From a virus: 30,396 nt of DNA. This document shows positions 2,432 to 28,641 of this stretch, piece by piece. The stretch's first letter is position 1; the number at the start of each line of letters is the position of its first letter. The stretch spans positions 1 through 30,396 of IMG/VR virus record IMGVR_UViG_3300025640_000042. One strand, given 5' to 3'. The translations under genes were made by a program, and so were the position numbers. A model generated the notes under the pieces. It did no database searches and was not told where the DNA came from. It worked only from the letters and a program-made list of their open reading frames with translations.

Positions 2432-2655
2432 TATTCAATATCGTTTTGCGGGAACCATTCAGCCCCAAGTGTTTCTTCCTCCGTTAGTTCAGCCGTGTAA
2501 CTATCGTGTTTTAAGATAGCGTAGTCGCTTCCGTTTGGATGTTCTATGATAGATGCCCAGTCGGTAGTATAAACACCATCATAGCCCTCGCCATTAACTA
2601 CTAAAGTATTGTAGGCTTCCAATTCGCTTCTTGTTGTGCTTGTGTAGTATGCCAT
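2431..2655 (-). CDS. Hypothetical small tail-region protein, 74 aa
   Basis: This small acidic protein is not recognised. It lies between two adhesin-like genes and overlaps both by one base (stop/start TAATG at each end), so it should be made in step with them. It has no membrane segment, signal peptide or cysteine. The sequence (GYDGVYTTDWASIIEHPNGSDYAILKHDSY) looks like a compact beta-rich domain. A role as a fibre chaperone or small tail-tip subunit would fit the context, but nothing in the sequence demonstrates it. Confidence 0.72.
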   Translation of the reverse strand: MAYYTSTTRSELEAYNTLVVNGEGYDGVYTTDWASIIEHPNGSDYAILKHDSYTAELTEEETLGAEWFPQNDIE

Positions 2656-3590
2656 TAGTATATAGTGTAGAAGTCGTTGATGTTCGTTTCTATGCCGCCT
2701 TGATTACTGCTTTGGTCGGTAGTGTAAAAAATCAATTCTTGCATTTGATACATTCTAAACGAACCAGCATCTTGATATGCTAATCTTGGGCCAGTTCCTT
2801 GATAATTAAATAAACTATAATCAAGATAAATTAAAGACTGGGTACTCATTGCGGTTTTAATATCACCTCGTGTTCCGCTAAATGATGAACCATTGACATA
2901 GGCCGCAGTCATATTTGCTCTTGAATTTATAGTGGTGGAAACACTTGCGGTTTGTGCCAACCAAGAATAGTCCGCACTATCAGTTGTGCCTATCAAACAA
3001 TTAAAATCAAATGTACTTTTCAATACGGAGAATATATTGTAGGATGCGGGGGATGCAAATGATAATGGTAGAAGCAAATAAGTAGACGATGGTGGTGAAA
3101 TAGTAGGCTTCCCATTCTCCAAAATAGTAGAACCGCTTGAAACGATTTGAGGTTGTGCTGATGCACTTGCATTTGCCGCATCATTCCCATTCCCGCTTTG
3201 GTCGTACCAAGTCGTAACGAACCCATCAGTACCGCTACAAAACGATTCAAGGGTTGTTGTATCTAACTCGTTGTTTACGAATCCGATTGATTGGGTAGTG
3301 TTATCACTTGCTCTACGGACTACGATTGCATCGCCCGTATATGTGTTATCTAATAAGCGTAAAGAGTAAGCCGCAGCCGCTCCCGAATAATCGTTGAGCA
3401 GTCCCGTGAATGCTACGGGTTCTGGGTTTTGTACGAGGAATTTGACGTCGGTCTTTGCGCACGATGGTGATTCCATCGTTCCGCCGTCGGCTATGACGCG
3501 AGCCTTGAAATCATTGACGTACTTCGCCCAAATTCCACCTCCGCCAAACAATCCTCTCCGTAGGAGGTAATAGAATTGAGATTGTTTCAT
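2655..3590 (-). CDS. LamG/arabinofuranosidase-B-like tail protein
   Basis: A 311-residue virion protein. After an N-terminal ~70-residue region with a Gly-rich patch (RRGLFGGGGIW) comes a concanavalin/LamG-like domain. It opens with GAAAAYSLRLLDNTYTGDAI and VVRRASDNTTQSIGF, continues with VTTWYDQSGNGNDA near residue 146, and ends with QMQELIFYTTDQSSNQ. That series recalls the beta-sandwich of alpha-L-arabinofuranosidase B and the LamG modules common in phage fibres. Glycan binding is the likely role. Hydrolysis is possible in that family, but I cannot identify catalytic residues. A 61-base gap separates it from the large tail protein upstream, and its stop overlaps the next start by one base. 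Confidence 0.78.
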   Translation of the reverse strand: MKQSQFYYLLRRGLFGGGGIWAKYVNDFKARVIADGGTMESPSCAKTDVKFLVQNPEPVAFTGLLNDYSGAAAAYSLRLLDNTYTGDAIVVRRASDNTTQSIGFVNNELDTTTLESFCSGTDGFVTTWYDQSGNGNDAANASASAQPQIVSSGSTILENGKPTISPPSSTYLLLPLSFASPASYNIFSVLKSTFDFNCLIGTTDSADYSWLAQTASVSTTINSRANMTAAYVNGSSFSGTRGDIKTAMSTQSLIYLDYSLFNYQGTGPRLAYQDAGSFRMYQMQELIFYTTDQSSNQGGIETNINDFYTIY

Positions 3591-15691: not shown

Positions 15692-15721
15692 AAAAAAAGG
15701 GGACGTCACCACAACGTCCCC
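15692..15721 (-). terminator. Strong intrinsic terminator
   Basis: Minus-strand GGGGACGT (15721-15714) pairs perfectly with ACGTCCCC (15706-15699) around a 7-base loop, followed by seven T (15698-15692). It closes the 78-residue gene and separates the small-gene insert from the portal gene. Confidence 0.88.
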
Positions 15722-15765
15722 TACCAAACCAAAACACCAATCGGAGCAGAACGCCCCGTGGTTCC

Positions 15766-16002
15766 CTAAATGCTTTTGTGAATTGCCGAATTTCTTTTCA
15801 AACGTTCGTTCAATGCTGAACGGCTAAATGAAACGTATGTCGTGCATTCTTTCAATACGATTCCCGATGGAGTGATTGATTCCACCAAAAATTCCTTTCC
15901 CGTGCGCGTCATCTCGATGATGTCGCCAACCGATATGTCGTCAACTGGTTCCATGTTCGGTTTGTAATGTACGGAATCATTTGTCGTTGTCGTGTAATAC
16001 AT
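15766..16002 (-). CDS. Hypothetical small beta-barrel-like protein, 78 aa
   Basis: This small gene is not recognised. It lies between the cassette with the 80-residue gene and a strong terminator. The core SVGDIIEMTRTGKEFLVESITPSGIVL has the look of a small SH3/KOW-like barrel, followed by a short basic helix (SALNERLKRNSAIHK). The 80-residue gene upstream has a similar opening (KVGNTIKLGDCVGNVLEIKES), so the two may share a fold. The ATG at 16002 is used here; Met at 15954 is an alternative that would remove a Thr-rich leader. Function is unknown. Confidence 0.65.
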   Translation of the reverse strand: MYYTTTTNDSVHYKPNMEPVDDISVGDIIEMTRTGKEFLVESITPSGIVLKECTTYVSFSRSALNERLKRNSAIHKSI

Positions 16003-16033
16003 AGGCGGAAATTTTTTCTATCTACCACCAAAT

Positions 16034-16057
16034 CCCCCCGTTTGTTTCAGCGGGGGG
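16034..16057 (-). terminator. Conserved-loop hairpin, copy 1
   Basis: Minus-strand CCCCCCG, loop CTGAAACAAA, CGGGGGG, followed by ATTTGG. The loop is identical to those at 27078-27101 and 27920-27943, while the stem differs by paired changes. It starts about 20 bases after the stop at 16078. The T-tract is weak, so termination may be partial. Confidence 0.7.
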
Positions 16058-16077
16058 CGGTTGGTGTGTGGGGTTGT

Positions 16078-16320
16078 TTAGTAAACGTGAACCTTTGTTG
16101 TTTCTTTGCAAGTTTCAAAACGCTTTTTTGCTGGAACAACTACTTCCATTGTGCCGGCCATTAGTCTTTGTTTCTCTATTCTTTCGGGTGAATCAATCAA
16201 GAAACTCAACAATCTCTTTCCGTTTTTTTGAAATGATTCTTTGATTTCTAAAACATTTCCAACGCAATCACCTAATTTGATTGTGTTTCCAACTTTGATT
16301 TCGTTTGCTTGTAATTTCAT
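16078..16320 (-). CDS. Hypothetical cassette gene, 80 aa
   Basis: This protein is not recognised. It starts at the ATG at 16320, preceded by the leader AACACCACA, and has its own promoter (16360-16391) and a conserved-loop hairpin behind it. It therefore forms a separate transcription unit inserted between the terminase and portal regions, in the manner of a moron. The N-terminal half (NEIKVGNTIKLGDCVGNVLEIKES) looks like a small beta-barrel. The C-terminal half is basic (VVVPAKKRFETCKETTKVHVY). A longer in-frame reading exists upstream, but it runs through the promoter and is rejected. The expression style suggests an early or host-directed function, which is inference. Confidence 0.72.
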   Translation of the reverse strand: MKLQANEIKVGNTIKLGDCVGNVLEIKESFQKNGKRLLSFLIDSPERIEKQRLMAGTMEVVVPAKKRFETCKETTKVHVY

Positions 16321-16332
16321 TGTGGTGTTTTG

Positions 16333-16395
16333 TTTGGTCGTTGCTCCGTTGCAACACTTCAAATATACAAAAAAATCAATACAATCCACAAAACG
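16333..16395 (-). promoter_or_regulatory. Cassette promoter and 5' hairpin, copy A
   Basis: On the minus strand, CGTTTTGTGGATT contains TTG (16391-16389). It is followed after 21 bases by TATATTTG (16367-16360), a full match to the Bacteroidota -7 element. Immediately downstream is a hairpin with stem GTTGC/GCAAC and loop AACGGA. Bases 16333-16364 are identical to 28520-28551. Confidence 0.75.
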
Positions 16396-16406
16396 TGAAA
16401 AACTTT

Positions 16407-16571
16407 TCAATTATTTTTATTCGTTTCCAAATCAGTGCGGAACACATTGATGATTTCCCCATCAAGTAAGATGCGCACAATGTACCCGTCACCCGTTTCA
16501 GCAATCCACGGCGTGAACCCATTTTCAAACAACATCAATCCCAATTCGCGGGCATCTTCCATTTTCATCAT
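16407..16571 (-). CDS. Hypothetical small protein after large terminase, 54 aa
   Basis: A short gene whose ATG overlaps the large terminase stop (ATGATG with TGA), ending just before the copy A promoter. The sequence (MEDARELGLMLFENGFTPWI, then GYIVRILLDGEIINVFRTD) looks like a compact alpha/beta domain with good coding character. I do not recognise a family. Tight coupling suggests it is made with the terminase, but a packaging role is not demonstrated. The second and third Met codons lie within four residues, so the exact start is uncertain. Confidence 0.65.
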   Translation of the reverse strand: MMKMEDARELGLMLFENGFTPWIAETGDGYIVRILLDGEIINVFRTDLETNKNN

Positions 16572-26710: not shown

Positions 26711-26842
26711 TTATGCGTCGACCCCTAAAAGAATCGACAACAATTTGTAAACGGATAGTATTGCGAATGAACCAATGAAGAACATCGCCATCAGTACGAC
26801 TGAATATCCAATGTTTTCGAATGTGGTGTATTGCTTTTTCAT
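26711..26842 (-). CDS. Small membrane protein, 43 aa
   Basis: A short gene with the leader CACCACACGATT directly before its ATG, the same leader as two genes upstream. The protein has one strong membrane segment (SVVLMAMFFIGSFAILSVY) from about residue 14, continuing into a second hydrophobic run KLLSILLG. It should sit in the inner membrane. It lies in the early region, so an effect on the host membrane or superinfection is possible. It is not near the lysis genes. No family is recognised. Confidence 0.68.
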   Translation of the reverse strand: MKKQYTTFENIGYSVVLMAMFFIGSFAILSVYKLLSILLGVDA

Positions 26843-26864
26843 AATCGTGTGGTGTTTGGTTTTG

Positions 26865-27047
26865 TTAATATTCGGATTCATCAAGGAATCGAGACGTCAA
26901 CCTTGCTTTGTGTCCATCTCTTTTGATTAGACGGAACCACAACAACGCTTGGTCGTATTTTATAAACTCGCCATCGAGTAGGCCGTTCGCCCATACTTGG
27001 TAGACTCTTTGATTTTCTTTGTCGGGTGTGCTGAACATTGGATTCAT
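26865..27047 (-). CDS. Hypothetical early protein, 60 aa
   Basis: The gene starts at the ATG at 27047 after the leader CACCACACGATT and follows the conserved-loop hairpin of cassette B by about 30 bases, so its expression depends on read-through or on a promoter I cannot see. The protein (RVYQVWANGLLDGEFIKYDQ, then LLWFRLIKRDGHKARLT) looks like a compact alpha/beta domain. A longer upstream reading runs through the hairpin and previous gene and is rejected. Function is unknown. Confidence 0.68.
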   Translation of the reverse strand: MNPMFSTPDKENQRVYQVWANGLLDGEFIKYDQALLWFRLIKRDGHKARLTSRFLDESEY

Positions 27048-27077
27048 AATCGTGTGGTGTTTGTTTGCACCCAAAAA

Positions 27078-27101
27078 CCCGACGTTTGTTTCAGCGTCGG
27101 G
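27078..27101 (-). terminator. Conserved-loop hairpin, copy 2
   Basis: Minus-strand CCCGACG, loop CTGAAACAAA, CGTCGGG, followed by TTTTT (27077-27073). The loop is identical to the other two copies. It lies just after the stop of the 82-residue gene and has a proper T-tract, so it probably terminates transcription. Confidence 0.82.
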
Positions 27102-27124
27102 CGTTTGGTTCGTTGGGGTTGGTT

Positions 27125-27373
27125 TTAGAAATCTAAAGTGAATGAAACTTCTTCGATATCTTTTTCGGTAGCCAACTCGATGTCCATCCATGTTTGGTCG
27201 CGTTCCGTTGGTGATTCGATTGCACACGTCACGCCGTTCATTTCTTCCAATAGTCTTTCGTATTCTTCAGAATCTTCGTTTTGCAGTTTCTTGAATGTTG
27301 CGTTTGAAACCTCAACAATACGTTCTTCAGTTACGATGTAAGTTTCGGTGTAAGTTACTTTGATAGTTTTCAT
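27125..27373 (-). CDS. Hypothetical cassette gene, acidic, 82 aa
   Basis: An acidic protein with a beta-rich N-terminus (MKTIKVTYTETYIVTEERIV) and a charged helix (FKKLQNEDSEEYERLLEEM), ending in a strand (VSFTLDF). It starts at the ATG at 27373 after the leader CACCACACGATT, with its own promoter (27413-27448) and a conserved-loop terminator. Strongly acidic small early proteins are often inhibitors of host DNA-binding proteins or DNA mimics; that is speculation here. The longer in-frame reading from 27601 crosses the promoter and is rejected. Confidence 0.75.
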   Translation of the reverse strand: MKTIKVTYTETYIVTEERIVEVSNATFKKLQNEDSEEYERLLEEMNGVTCAIESPTERDQTWMDIELATEKDIEEVSFTLDF

Positions 27374-27384
27374 AATCGTGTGGT

Positions 27385-27448
27385 GTTTTGGTATCGCTTC
27401 GTTGCGATGGTGTAAACATACAACAAAATTCCGAATCCACAATACGTG
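27385..27448 (-). promoter_or_regulatory. Cassette promoter and 5' hairpin, copy B
   Basis: On the minus strand, CACGTATTGTGGATTC contains TTG (27442-27440), then 19 bases, then TATGTTTA (27420-27413), one base off TAnnTTTG. Downstream is a hairpin with stem ATCGC/GCGAT and loop AACGAA: same loop type as copies A and C, with a compensated stem. Confidence 0.68.
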
Positions 27449-27506
27449 AATAAAAAATAATTTAAAAAATGTGAATACAAGTGTTAAGAACCCACCATCC
27501 ATAAAC

Positions 27507-27537
27507 TTGACTTTATCAATTGCGGTCGTTAACTTTG
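27507..27537 (+). promoter_or_regulatory. Candidate plus-strand promoter
   Basis: TTG (27507-27509), 20 bases, TAACTTTG (27530-27537): a full match to the Bacteroidota consensus on the plus strand, where no gene follows. A palindrome spans the predicted start of transcription. The T-rich side of the terminator at 27683-27718 would end such a transcript after about 175 bases. Confidence 0.45.
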
Positions 27538-27598
27538 GCCATGTGAATGAATTCACGCCCCCGGGAGGGGAGCGGCAAATCTCATTCTCATTTTTGGA

Positions 27599-27627
27599 CA
27601 AAGTTAAAATTTAACAAAAGAGCCAAA
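27599..27627 (-). promoter_or_regulatory. Candidate minus-strand promoter with overlapping palindrome
   Basis: On the minus strand TTTG (27627-27624), 17 bases, TAACTTTG (27606-27599). The palindrome GTTAAA-A-TTTAAC overlaps the -7 element, as an operator might. It faces the plus-strand candidate about 60 bases away and would transcribe toward the 82-residue gene. Confidence 0.42.
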
Positions 27628-27682
27628 AAAGAAAGAACAACACAATCTCTTGCTCTCTTATATCTCTATTGTGTTAAGCAGA

Positions 27683-27718
27683 AACCCCGACGAAACGAAT
27701 GCGTAACGTCGGGGTTTT
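27683..27718. terminator. Strong bidirectional terminator
   Basis: AACCCCGACG (27683-27692) pairs with CGTCGGGGTT (27707-27716) around 14 bases. The plus strand continues TTTTCT; the minus strand reads GGGGTTTCTG. It follows the stop of the 48-residue gene on the minus strand and could also end a plus-strand RNA. Confidence 0.82.
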
Positions 27719-27742
27719 CTCATTTAATGATGGGGTGTTGGT

Positions 27743-27889
27743 TTACAATCTCTTTAATGCTTTTGGACGTTTTCCAACAACATCCATAATGTGGTCAAGC
27801 GCGTCATGACACGACCAAAAGGGTAGCAACATTAGAACTGGTTGTTCGTTTCTTTCGAACAACACTTCGAATTGATTTAAATTTTCCAT
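27743..27889 (-). CDS. Hypothetical early protein, 48 aa
   Basis: A short gene (ATG 27889, TAA 27745-27743) between the conserved-loop hairpin of cassette C and a strong terminator. The protein reads MENLNQFEVLFERNEQPVLM, then LLPFWSCHDALDHIMDVVGK and a basic end. Its opening strand and the SCHDALDHI helix have good coding character. It would be transcribed by read-through of the cassette C hairpin. No family is recognised. Confidence 0.62.
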   Translation of the reverse strand: MENLNQFEVLFERNEQPVLMLLPFWSCHDALDHIMDVVGKRPKALKRL

Positions 27890-27919
27890 TTTATAGTGTT
27901 TAAAGTTTGCACCCGAAAA

Positions 27920-27943
27920 CCCCGCATTTGTTTCAGTGCGGGG
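27920..27943 (-). terminator. Conserved-loop hairpin, copy 3
   Basis: Minus-strand CCCCGCA, loop CTGAAACAAA, TGCGGGG, followed by TTTT (27919-27916). Loop identical to copies 1 and 2, stem changed by paired substitutions. It lies about 20 bases after the stop of the 89-residue gene. The flank AACCCCAACGAACC is shared with copy 2. Confidence 0.8.
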
Positions 27944-27964
27944 CGTTGGGTTCGTTGGGGTTGA

Positions 27965-28234
27965 TTAAGCAACACGAACGATGATTCCTTTTGATGCCTT
28001 ATCGTTCCGGTCGGGTGAAAAGAAGATGCTTTCGTTCAATTCCATCTTCATCATTTGCTCCCAGTAATACGATTGAATCGCATACATGAATTCCCAATCG
28101 TCTCCCTCTGCTTGGTTGTTGAAGAAGATTCTTTTGAAAGAATAATCCGATGTTGACACATGGTTACCTTCTTGGATTGTGATGCGGTAAACGATTTCTT
28201 TTGGTTCGTTTGCTTTGAATACTTGCTTTTTCAT
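27965..28234 (-). CDS. Hypothetical cassette gene, 89 aa
   Basis: The second gene of cassette C. The protein is beta-rich (EPKEIVYRITIQEGNHVSTS) followed by a helix with aromatic residues (DDWEFMYAIQSYYWEQMM) and a final strand. The frame is open for 25 more codons to an ATG at 28309, one base after the stop of the gene upstream. I prefer 28234 because the leader ACACCAA before ATGAA is the one used by the first gene of this cassette; the longer form is quite possible. No family is recognised. Confidence 0.66.
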   Translation of the reverse strand: MKKQVFKANEPKEIVYRITIQEGNHVSTSDYSFKRIFFNNQAEGDDWEFMYAIQSYYWEQMMKMELNESIFFSPDRNDKASKGIIVRVA

Positions 28235-28310: not shown

Positions 28311-28508
28311 TTATCTTAATTGGTAGTTACCTTTTTTTGATTCCTCGTTGAAGTAGTTTGTCCAATACTCTATGGCGTCCGCGGTGTTGATGCTTTTAAC
28401 TGCGCTTGTTCCGTCTTCTTTTTCTGTAATCTTTACAAGTCCGAAGAAGTTTATTTCTACTTTAAGGTCTTGGTTTTCAAACGTTTGGTGTGTTGTGAAA
28501 TTCTTCAT
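28311..28508 (-). CDS. Hypothetical cassette gene, 65 aa
   Basis: The first gene of cassette C, starting at the ATG at 28508, 39 bases after the promoter -7 element and directly after the 5' hairpin and the leader AACACCAA. The protein starts with NFTTHQTFENQDLKVEINFF, then LVKITEKEDGTSAVKSINTA and a helix AIEYWTNYFNEESKKGNYQLR. The beta-hairpin plus helix suggests a small single domain. No family is recognised. Its promoter makes it one of the earliest candidates for expression. Confidence 0.7.
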   Translation of the reverse strand: MKNFTTHQTFENQDLKVEINFFGLVKITEKEDGTSAVKSINTADAIEYWTNYFNEESKKGNYQLR

Positions 28509-28519
28509 TTGGTGTTTGT

Positions 28520-28580
28520 TTTGGTCGTTGCTCCGTTGCAACACTTCAAATGTAAGACAATATTTTGAATTCACAATACG
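28520..28580 (-). promoter_or_regulatory. Cassette promoter and 5' hairpin, copy C
   Basis: On the minus strand CGTATTGTGAATTC contains TTG (28576-28574), then 19 bases, then TACATTTG (28554-28547), a full match to TAnnTTTG. The hairpin GTTGC-AACGGA-GCAAC follows. Bases 28520-28551 are identical to 16333-16364 in copy A, 12 kb away. Confidence 0.78.
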
Positions 28581-28605
28581 TTAATAAAGTTTTTTTTATT
28601 CCAAC

Positions 28606-28632
28606 AAAAAAGGGACGCCCAAAGGACGCCCC
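28606..28632 (-). terminator. Second terminator of the lysis operon
   Basis: Minus-strand GGGGCGTCC (28632-28624) pairs with GGGCGTCCC (28620-28612) around TTT, using two G-U wobbles, followed by six T (28611-28606). The wobbles form only in minus-strand RNA. It insulates the late operon from the early promoter copy C. Confidence 0.8.
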
Positions 28633-28641
28633 CACAACAAC

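Follow-up and report, generated by a model that had tools for sequence, protein, structure and literature searches.

The window, by which we mean the whole stretch of DNA that was analysed, corresponds to a 30,396-base virus record in IMG/VR and belongs to a siphovirus whose main genes (tail tape measure, major head protein, protease, portal, and terminase) lie on the minus strand. The records nearest to its primase-polymerase include Cellulophaga, Flavobacterium, and Olleya phages; the window also codes for a recombinase domain of the YqaJ type and, with a weak match, for an annealing protein like Gp2.5. In the tail region, a 311-aa protein (2655-3590) matches an arabinofuranosidase B catalytic domain (E 1.5e-10) and is possibly a glycan-degrading part of the tail. 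A conserved 78-aa ORF, p78 (15766..16002, minus strand), lies between the terminase and portal genes, and upstream of it is an accessory ORF of 80 aa (16078..16320, minus strand). Small minus-strand ORFs are also found at 26865..27047 (60 aa), 27125..27373 (82 codons), 27743..27889 (48 aa), and 27965..28234 (89 aa). Three successive early ORFs have a common pre-start sequence, AACACCACACGATTATG, at 26841-26857, 27046-27062, and 27374-27388.

Three hairpins with the same 10-nt loop, CTGAAACAAA, are located between these small ORFs. Copy A (27061..27114, minus strand) follows the 82-codon ORF, which ends just before it, and precedes the 60-aa ORF. Its 7-bp inner stem, CCCGACG/CGTCGGG, is formed by 27078-27084 with 27095-27101 and encloses the loop at 27085-27094; an outer stem is present, the 3′ flank is TTTTTGGGTGC, and the copy scores 57.6 bits with our covariance model, R1. 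Copy B (27903..27956, minus strand; 60.9 bits) is placed between the 89-aa ORF, which ends just before it, and the 48-aa ORF, which starts after it, and has the inner stem CCCCGCA/TGCGGGG (27920-27926 with 27937-27943), the loop at 27927-27936, and the 3′ flank TTTTCGGGTGC. Copy C (16017..16070, minus strand; 70.0 bits) is upstream of p78, with the stop of the 80-aa ORF 27 nt before its loop; it consists of the inner stem CCCCCCG/CGGGGGG (16034-16040 with 16051-16057), the loop at 16041-16050, the outer stem CACCAA/TTGGTG, and a 3′ flank, ATTTGGTGGTAG, without a U-tract. All three copies are intergenic, lie on the coding (minus) strand, and show further pairing beyond the inner stem. Their stems, loop, and coordinates are as the original prediction described, and the 14-mer AACCCCAACGAACC precedes copies A and B. 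The exact loop occurs three times in the window, every time closing a stem of 7-8 bp; when two mismatches are allowed, the 72 matches (61 expected) are at chance level.

The original prediction would have been refuted had the loop been missing from relatives, a test that it passes: there the element greatly exceeds chance expectation, and 54 distinct copies were found in IMG/VR by pattern scans of viral contigs and of terminase relatives. A loop-agnostic hairpin scan of 80 contigs, picked by terminase only and three of them also found by pattern, again gave CTGAAACAAA as the commonest loop. With the pattern CGCC-N5-loop-N5-GG, 41 of 48 distinct matches form all five unconstrained pairs, for which the chance is about 0.7% each. 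When the stem is left wholly free (the loop followed by N8 and TTTGGTRGT), all 30 distinct matches pair at all seven positions, using 10 different stems. When the flanks are fixed and the loop is left free, about 18 matches form a hairpin: 13 of these have CTGAAACAAA, and in another four position 7 is the sole difference; thus, 17 of the roughly 18 fit CTGAAANAAA, and the loop of L271 is unrelated. Position 7 is the tolerant one (C, T, A, and G all occur), and the variant loops CTGAGACAAA and CTGTAATAAA as well as an unrelated 8-nt loop are found. Two loci, L048:8345-8396 and L271:1002-1055, have the same flanks and stem architecture with unrelated loops (TTTAACGA and CTCTACTAAGTT, respectively). 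From these stem-free and loop-free patterns, we conclude that the stem sequence is free and the loop sequence is held, with tolerance at position 7. The loop described as fixed is therefore identical in the three window copies and, among relatives, strongly preferred but not absolutely fixed. Two scans with a pattern that demanded NTTTT after the stem returned mostly chance matches and say little about distribution, because the family usually has NTTTGG.

The inner stem is paired in 100% of 52 sequences that use 13 different stems, bearing out the claim that the stems change only in compensated pairs. In 40 aligned copies, two-sided (compensatory) changes are seen in five of the seven inner pairs, and sliding the partner as a control lowers pairing from 83% to 39-48%. 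Every wobble in the inner stem reads U.G on the mRNA strand, and none would suit the opposite strand better. Compensatory change with pairing preserved places the element among conserved structured RNAs. An outer stem, ACCACC/GGTGGT, is also supported; because this helix slips, 62% of its cells are paired when it is read in one register. The outer flanks have a mean of -7.7 kcal/mol within a copy versus -6.7 kcal/mol when swapped among copies, and none of 2000 permutations was as low, a figure that is no strict probability because related sequences are not independent. The consensus that emerges has the outer stem, a small conserved internal loop (CG opposite NUUU), a GC-rich inner stem of 7 bp that can be any compensated sequence, and the near-fixed loop CUGAAANAAA. 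With R1, most copies score at least 45 bits and the background at most 20, and a few variants fall between at 31-41 bits. Rfam (release 15) gave no family at gathering score, the only match near the copies (up to E=5) being an irrelevant one to ceN89 (E=4.9).

The placement of the 54 distinct copies is regular. The stop codon of the upstream ORF is 15-44 nt before the loop in 50 copies (median 26.5), the ATG of the next ORF follows the loop in 51 (median 38 nt), and in only two copies is the hairpin enclosed by a same-strand ORF of 80 codons or more. The ORFs upstream of the hairpins encode nearly all unrelated small proteins, and those downstream are nearly all unrelated too, except for the p78 family at the terminase-portal junction. 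Homologues of the 60-aa ORF (26865..27047) in L079, L075, and L115 are also preceded by this hairpin. Tandem arrays in which ORF and hairpin alternate occur in L079 and L278, with three hairpins in each. Within 8 nt after the stem, the longest T-run in 40 copies is two in 2, three in 24, four in 11, and five in 3, and the GG that closes the T-run is conserved for the outer stem. Copy A, with TTTTT, and copy B, with TTTT, are thus borderline for an intrinsic terminator, and the family as a whole lacks the U-tract of one. The hairpins had been called terminal; we find instead that they are intercistronic, between co-directional ORFs, and that most have a T-run of only 3.

At the terL-p78 junction, which holds copy C, about 15 relatives align with the window as far as 16315-16322 and resume from 16015-16017, with about 90-99% identity on both sides (most 91% or more; L136 is lower upstream). 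The segment that differs is exactly one ORF (start codon at 16320) and its hairpin (16017-16070), and some relatives have no accessory ORF there. A homologue (89% identity) of the 27125..27373 ORF is found at the terminase-p78 junction of L081/G010, a different genome position, where it is again followed by a hairpin of the family with a different stem. One and the same upstream ORF (93-95% identity) can instead be followed by GGCGGCCC-GAAA-GGGTCGCC without a U-tract or by other hairpins. This GNRA hairpin is located upstream of p78, where other phages have the CTGAAACAAA hairpin, in L106, L107, L109, L111, L113, L118, L136, L170, L171, L173, and L176, and p78 is often preceded by other hairpins or by none. 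GAAA is a classical stable RNA tetraloop, so the replacement hairpins point to RNA. Their presence at the same junctions indicates that the loop CTGAAACAAA is not needed at a given site, and the absence of any copy from G008, which is about 95% identical to the window over much of its length, indicates that the element is dispensable. Judged from these alignments, the site wants a hairpin, for which the CTGAAACAAA family is one recurrent solution, and the hairpin marks the exact edge of a gene swap at this one well-sampled site.

Upstream of the unit made up of the 80-aa ORF, copy C, and p78 is a Bacteroidota-type promoter, TTTG-N21-TATATTTG (16360..16392, minus strand), and at the presumed 5′ end of the transcript is a leader hairpin, GTTGC-AACGGA-GCAAC (16340..16355, minus strand). 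The latter belongs to a second type of fixed-loop hairpin, with the loop AACGRA, that is found at 16340-16355, at 28527-28542 (minus strand), and near 27400 on the stems GTTGC/GCAAC, GTTGG/CCAAC, and GTTCA/TGAAC; in many relatives, it comes directly after TAnnTTTG promoters in the leaders of accessory units. The promoter and leader together (about 100 nt) are repeated before different accessory ORFs both in the window (16315-16407, 28499-28600, and 27366-27469) and in relatives. As the leader hairpin follows the promoter of hairpin-bearing units, their transcripts would carry a hairpin at both ends, for which protection from decay may be the simplest common reading. Ordinary terminator-like hairpins, in contrast, are present after p78 and before the portal gene (15698..15722, minus strand), with a T6 tail, and at 28611..28633 (minus strand), with a T-run. 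Terminator-like hairpins of the form GGGACGC-CACCACA-GCGTCCC / TGTGGTG, with changing stems, recur in terminase relatives and include the one at 15698-15722 of the window. L065:3302-3354 is a T6-tailed terminator with the stem CGCCCCCCCG/CGGGGGGCG and the loop CTGAAA, a shortened version of the CTGAAACAAA loop.

The element is found in siphoviruses, a crAss-like phage, and an elemo-like podovirus that have few or no proteins in common with the window. By tblastn, four hairpin-bearing contigs (G001, G004, G006, and G012) match no window protein, and G011, also hairpin-bearing, gives two weak matches only. G006 has a crAss-like portal and G011 an elemo/Cellulophaga-like terminase; one protein of G001 gave short partial matches, most of them to Flavobacterium phages, and protein comparison gave no match for G004. 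L056/G001 carries an IMG isolate-type number, and a cultured source may therefore exist. When the window ORFs were compared with 12 contigs, 11 of them hairpin-bearing, no phage-encoded partner protein common to all was detected; occurrence of the hairpin in phages without a detectable window protein argues against a shared partner of this kind. A pattern scan requiring the exact loop gave no convincing copy in about 790 Bacteroidota genomes: of its roughly 31 matches, nearly all have no stem and a few (e.g., G201) pair partly and are A/T-rich. The match in G014/L094 proved to be an ordinary long terminator with a T-run. Blastn of INPHARED with two consensus queries of 54-55 nt returned nothing real, short variable hairpins being hard for blastn, and literature searches with the loop sequence returned unrelated papers only. 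We thus found no description of the element in Rfam, INPHARED (short blastn), or the open-access literature covered by this limited search.

As a kind, the element is already known, being a phage intercistronic hairpin; what sets it apart is a loop conserved across unrelated phages and a position at the exact edge of exchanged genes. Phage T4 has stable intercistronic CUUCGG hairpins with a preferred loop between its genes, but loop, length, and internal loop differ, and our element also conserves an outer stem and the internal loop. REP elements, extragenic palindromes between the cistrons of bacteria, have been proposed to stabilise upstream mRNA. They are, however, numerous and chromosomal with conserved tags such as GTAG, whereas our element has variable stems, is present in one to three copies per phage contig, and was not found in host chromosomes. 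The lambdoid boxB is a phage hairpin with an A-rich loop beginning CUGA; its loop length and placement differ from those seen here, and no antitermination gene was identified in Pfam scans of 20 window proteins. The SAS/ESAS elements of cluster K mycobacteriophages are short conserved repeats before a subset of phage genes, whose function is not known; like our element they lie in gaps, and ESAS includes imperfect 17-bp inverted repeats (PMC3203893). In ESAS, the arms are conserved in sequence and the spacer varies, whereas our element keeps its loop while its arms undergo compensated changes; SAS elements track gene families, and our element changes with the upstream ORF. We rejected membership on account of the arms and the absence of the 13-bp asymmetric repeat GGGATAGGAGCCC from the 54-nt alignment.

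We suggest that the hairpin is probably no ordinary terminator but an RNA element. Its position, the U.G wobbles, and the GNRA substitutes point to mRNA, and the usual lack of a U-tract together with the true T-run terminators elsewhere argues against plain termination, in keeping with the earlier argument that an ordinary terminator has no need of a fixed loop. Partial termination is possible at the copies with TTTT or TTTTT, including copies A and B. Of the functions proposed at the outset, RNA processing or 3′-end stability remains the best class as far as sequence can tell, and nothing specific was found in favour of antitermination. Our leading reading, which we hold tentatively and at a little less than even confidence, is an intercistronic mRNA element, for 3′ ends or for processing/stability, that moves together with accessory genes. 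The hairpin would sit downstream of the stretch that a ribosome on the stop codon covers and would block 3′-to-5′ decay or set a processing point, so that each swapped-in small gene would bring its own protected 3′ end. Since the loop recurs in phages that share no detectable gene with the window, it might be a self-stable fold or, alternatively, the site of a host RNA-binding factor, although we infer this part less securely. Several observations count against our reading: the hairpin is short for RNase III; the spacing before the next start is as regular as that after the stop, with which an action on the downstream gene would agree as well; G008 has no copy; and L048 and L271 keep the flanks with divergent loops.

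That regular spacing before the next ATG speaks for the first-ranked rival, namely translation control of the downstream gene, in which the hairpin would insulate the start from upstream ribosomes or serve as the binding site of a regulator, much as with the start-associated repeats of mycobacteriophages. In T4, the RNA hairpin to which gp43 binds lies about 40 nt before the start of gp43 itself (PMC3014915), and one ORF family is preceded by the hairpin in the window, L079, L075, and L115. We nevertheless consider this reading unlikely: relatedness among the downstream genes is almost confined to the p78 family, p78 is in turn often preceded by other hairpins or none, and at junction C it is the upstream ORF, not the downstream gene, with which the hairpin changes. 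Ranked next and also unlikely is a weak intrinsic terminator or attenuator, perhaps under antiterminator control, that would lower expression of the genes beyond. A GC-rich stem followed by three to five T in nearly all copies, with the longer runs in A and B, would suit such a role, but the longest run is 3 in 24 of 40 copies, the GG that ends it is conserved for the outer stem, a 10-nt loop is large for a terminator, the GNRA hairpins at equivalent sites have no U-tract, and true T-run hairpins exist elsewhere in the genome. A terminator scan did not call the coding-strand copies, but its loop limit of 8 excludes them anyway.

The exchange at junction C allows a third rival, which we regard as improbable: a DNA-level cassette boundary, where accessory genes would be exchanged through short stretches of homology supplied by the hairpin and the repeated leader, or through recognition of a structure in single-stranded DNA. 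The exchanged unit is exactly one ORF and a hairpin, tandem arrays exist in L079 and L278, leaders are repeated at 16320, 27373, and 28508, and the window encodes the recombinase domain and annealing protein noted above. In having one ORF and a variable-stem 3′ hairpin as an exchangeable unit, and in its tandem arrays, the element resembles an integron cassette (attC). It lacks the R boxes, however, and we discarded attC (RYYYAAC ... GTTRRRY) as an identity, the 5′ AAC being present in 13 of 52 copies and the 3′ GTT in none. When 20 window proteins, mostly non-structural, were scanned against Pfam, no IntI-type integrase or any other site-specific recombinase was seen; the contig may be incomplete. 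Moreover, covarying stems lower sequence homology and would not be favoured by homologous exchange, and the strand, the wobble pattern, and the GNRA replacements at the same site suit RNA. A further reading that we rate just as low is a cassette system common to unrelated Bacteroidota phages, in which each small accessory ORF would have a structure-recognised 3′ hairpin serving as both RNA element and exchange boundary, its CTGAAANAAA loop being read by a host factor (an RNA-binding protein or a recombinase).

Small accessory genes of phages are exchanged constantly, and little is known about how a newcomer is accommodated in an operon without disturbing the genes around it. At one site, the exchanged unit can be read off precisely as an ORF and its hairpin behind a shared leader. 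Together with the near-fixed loop in phages with few or no common genes, this brings two questions within reach of experiment: which component of Bacteroidota recognises the loop or tolerates it, and whether the mRNA ends of phage cassettes come with the cassettes themselves. Should a host RNA-binding factor prove to be involved, the loop would be a handle with which to find it, in a phylum where post-transcriptional control has been little explored.
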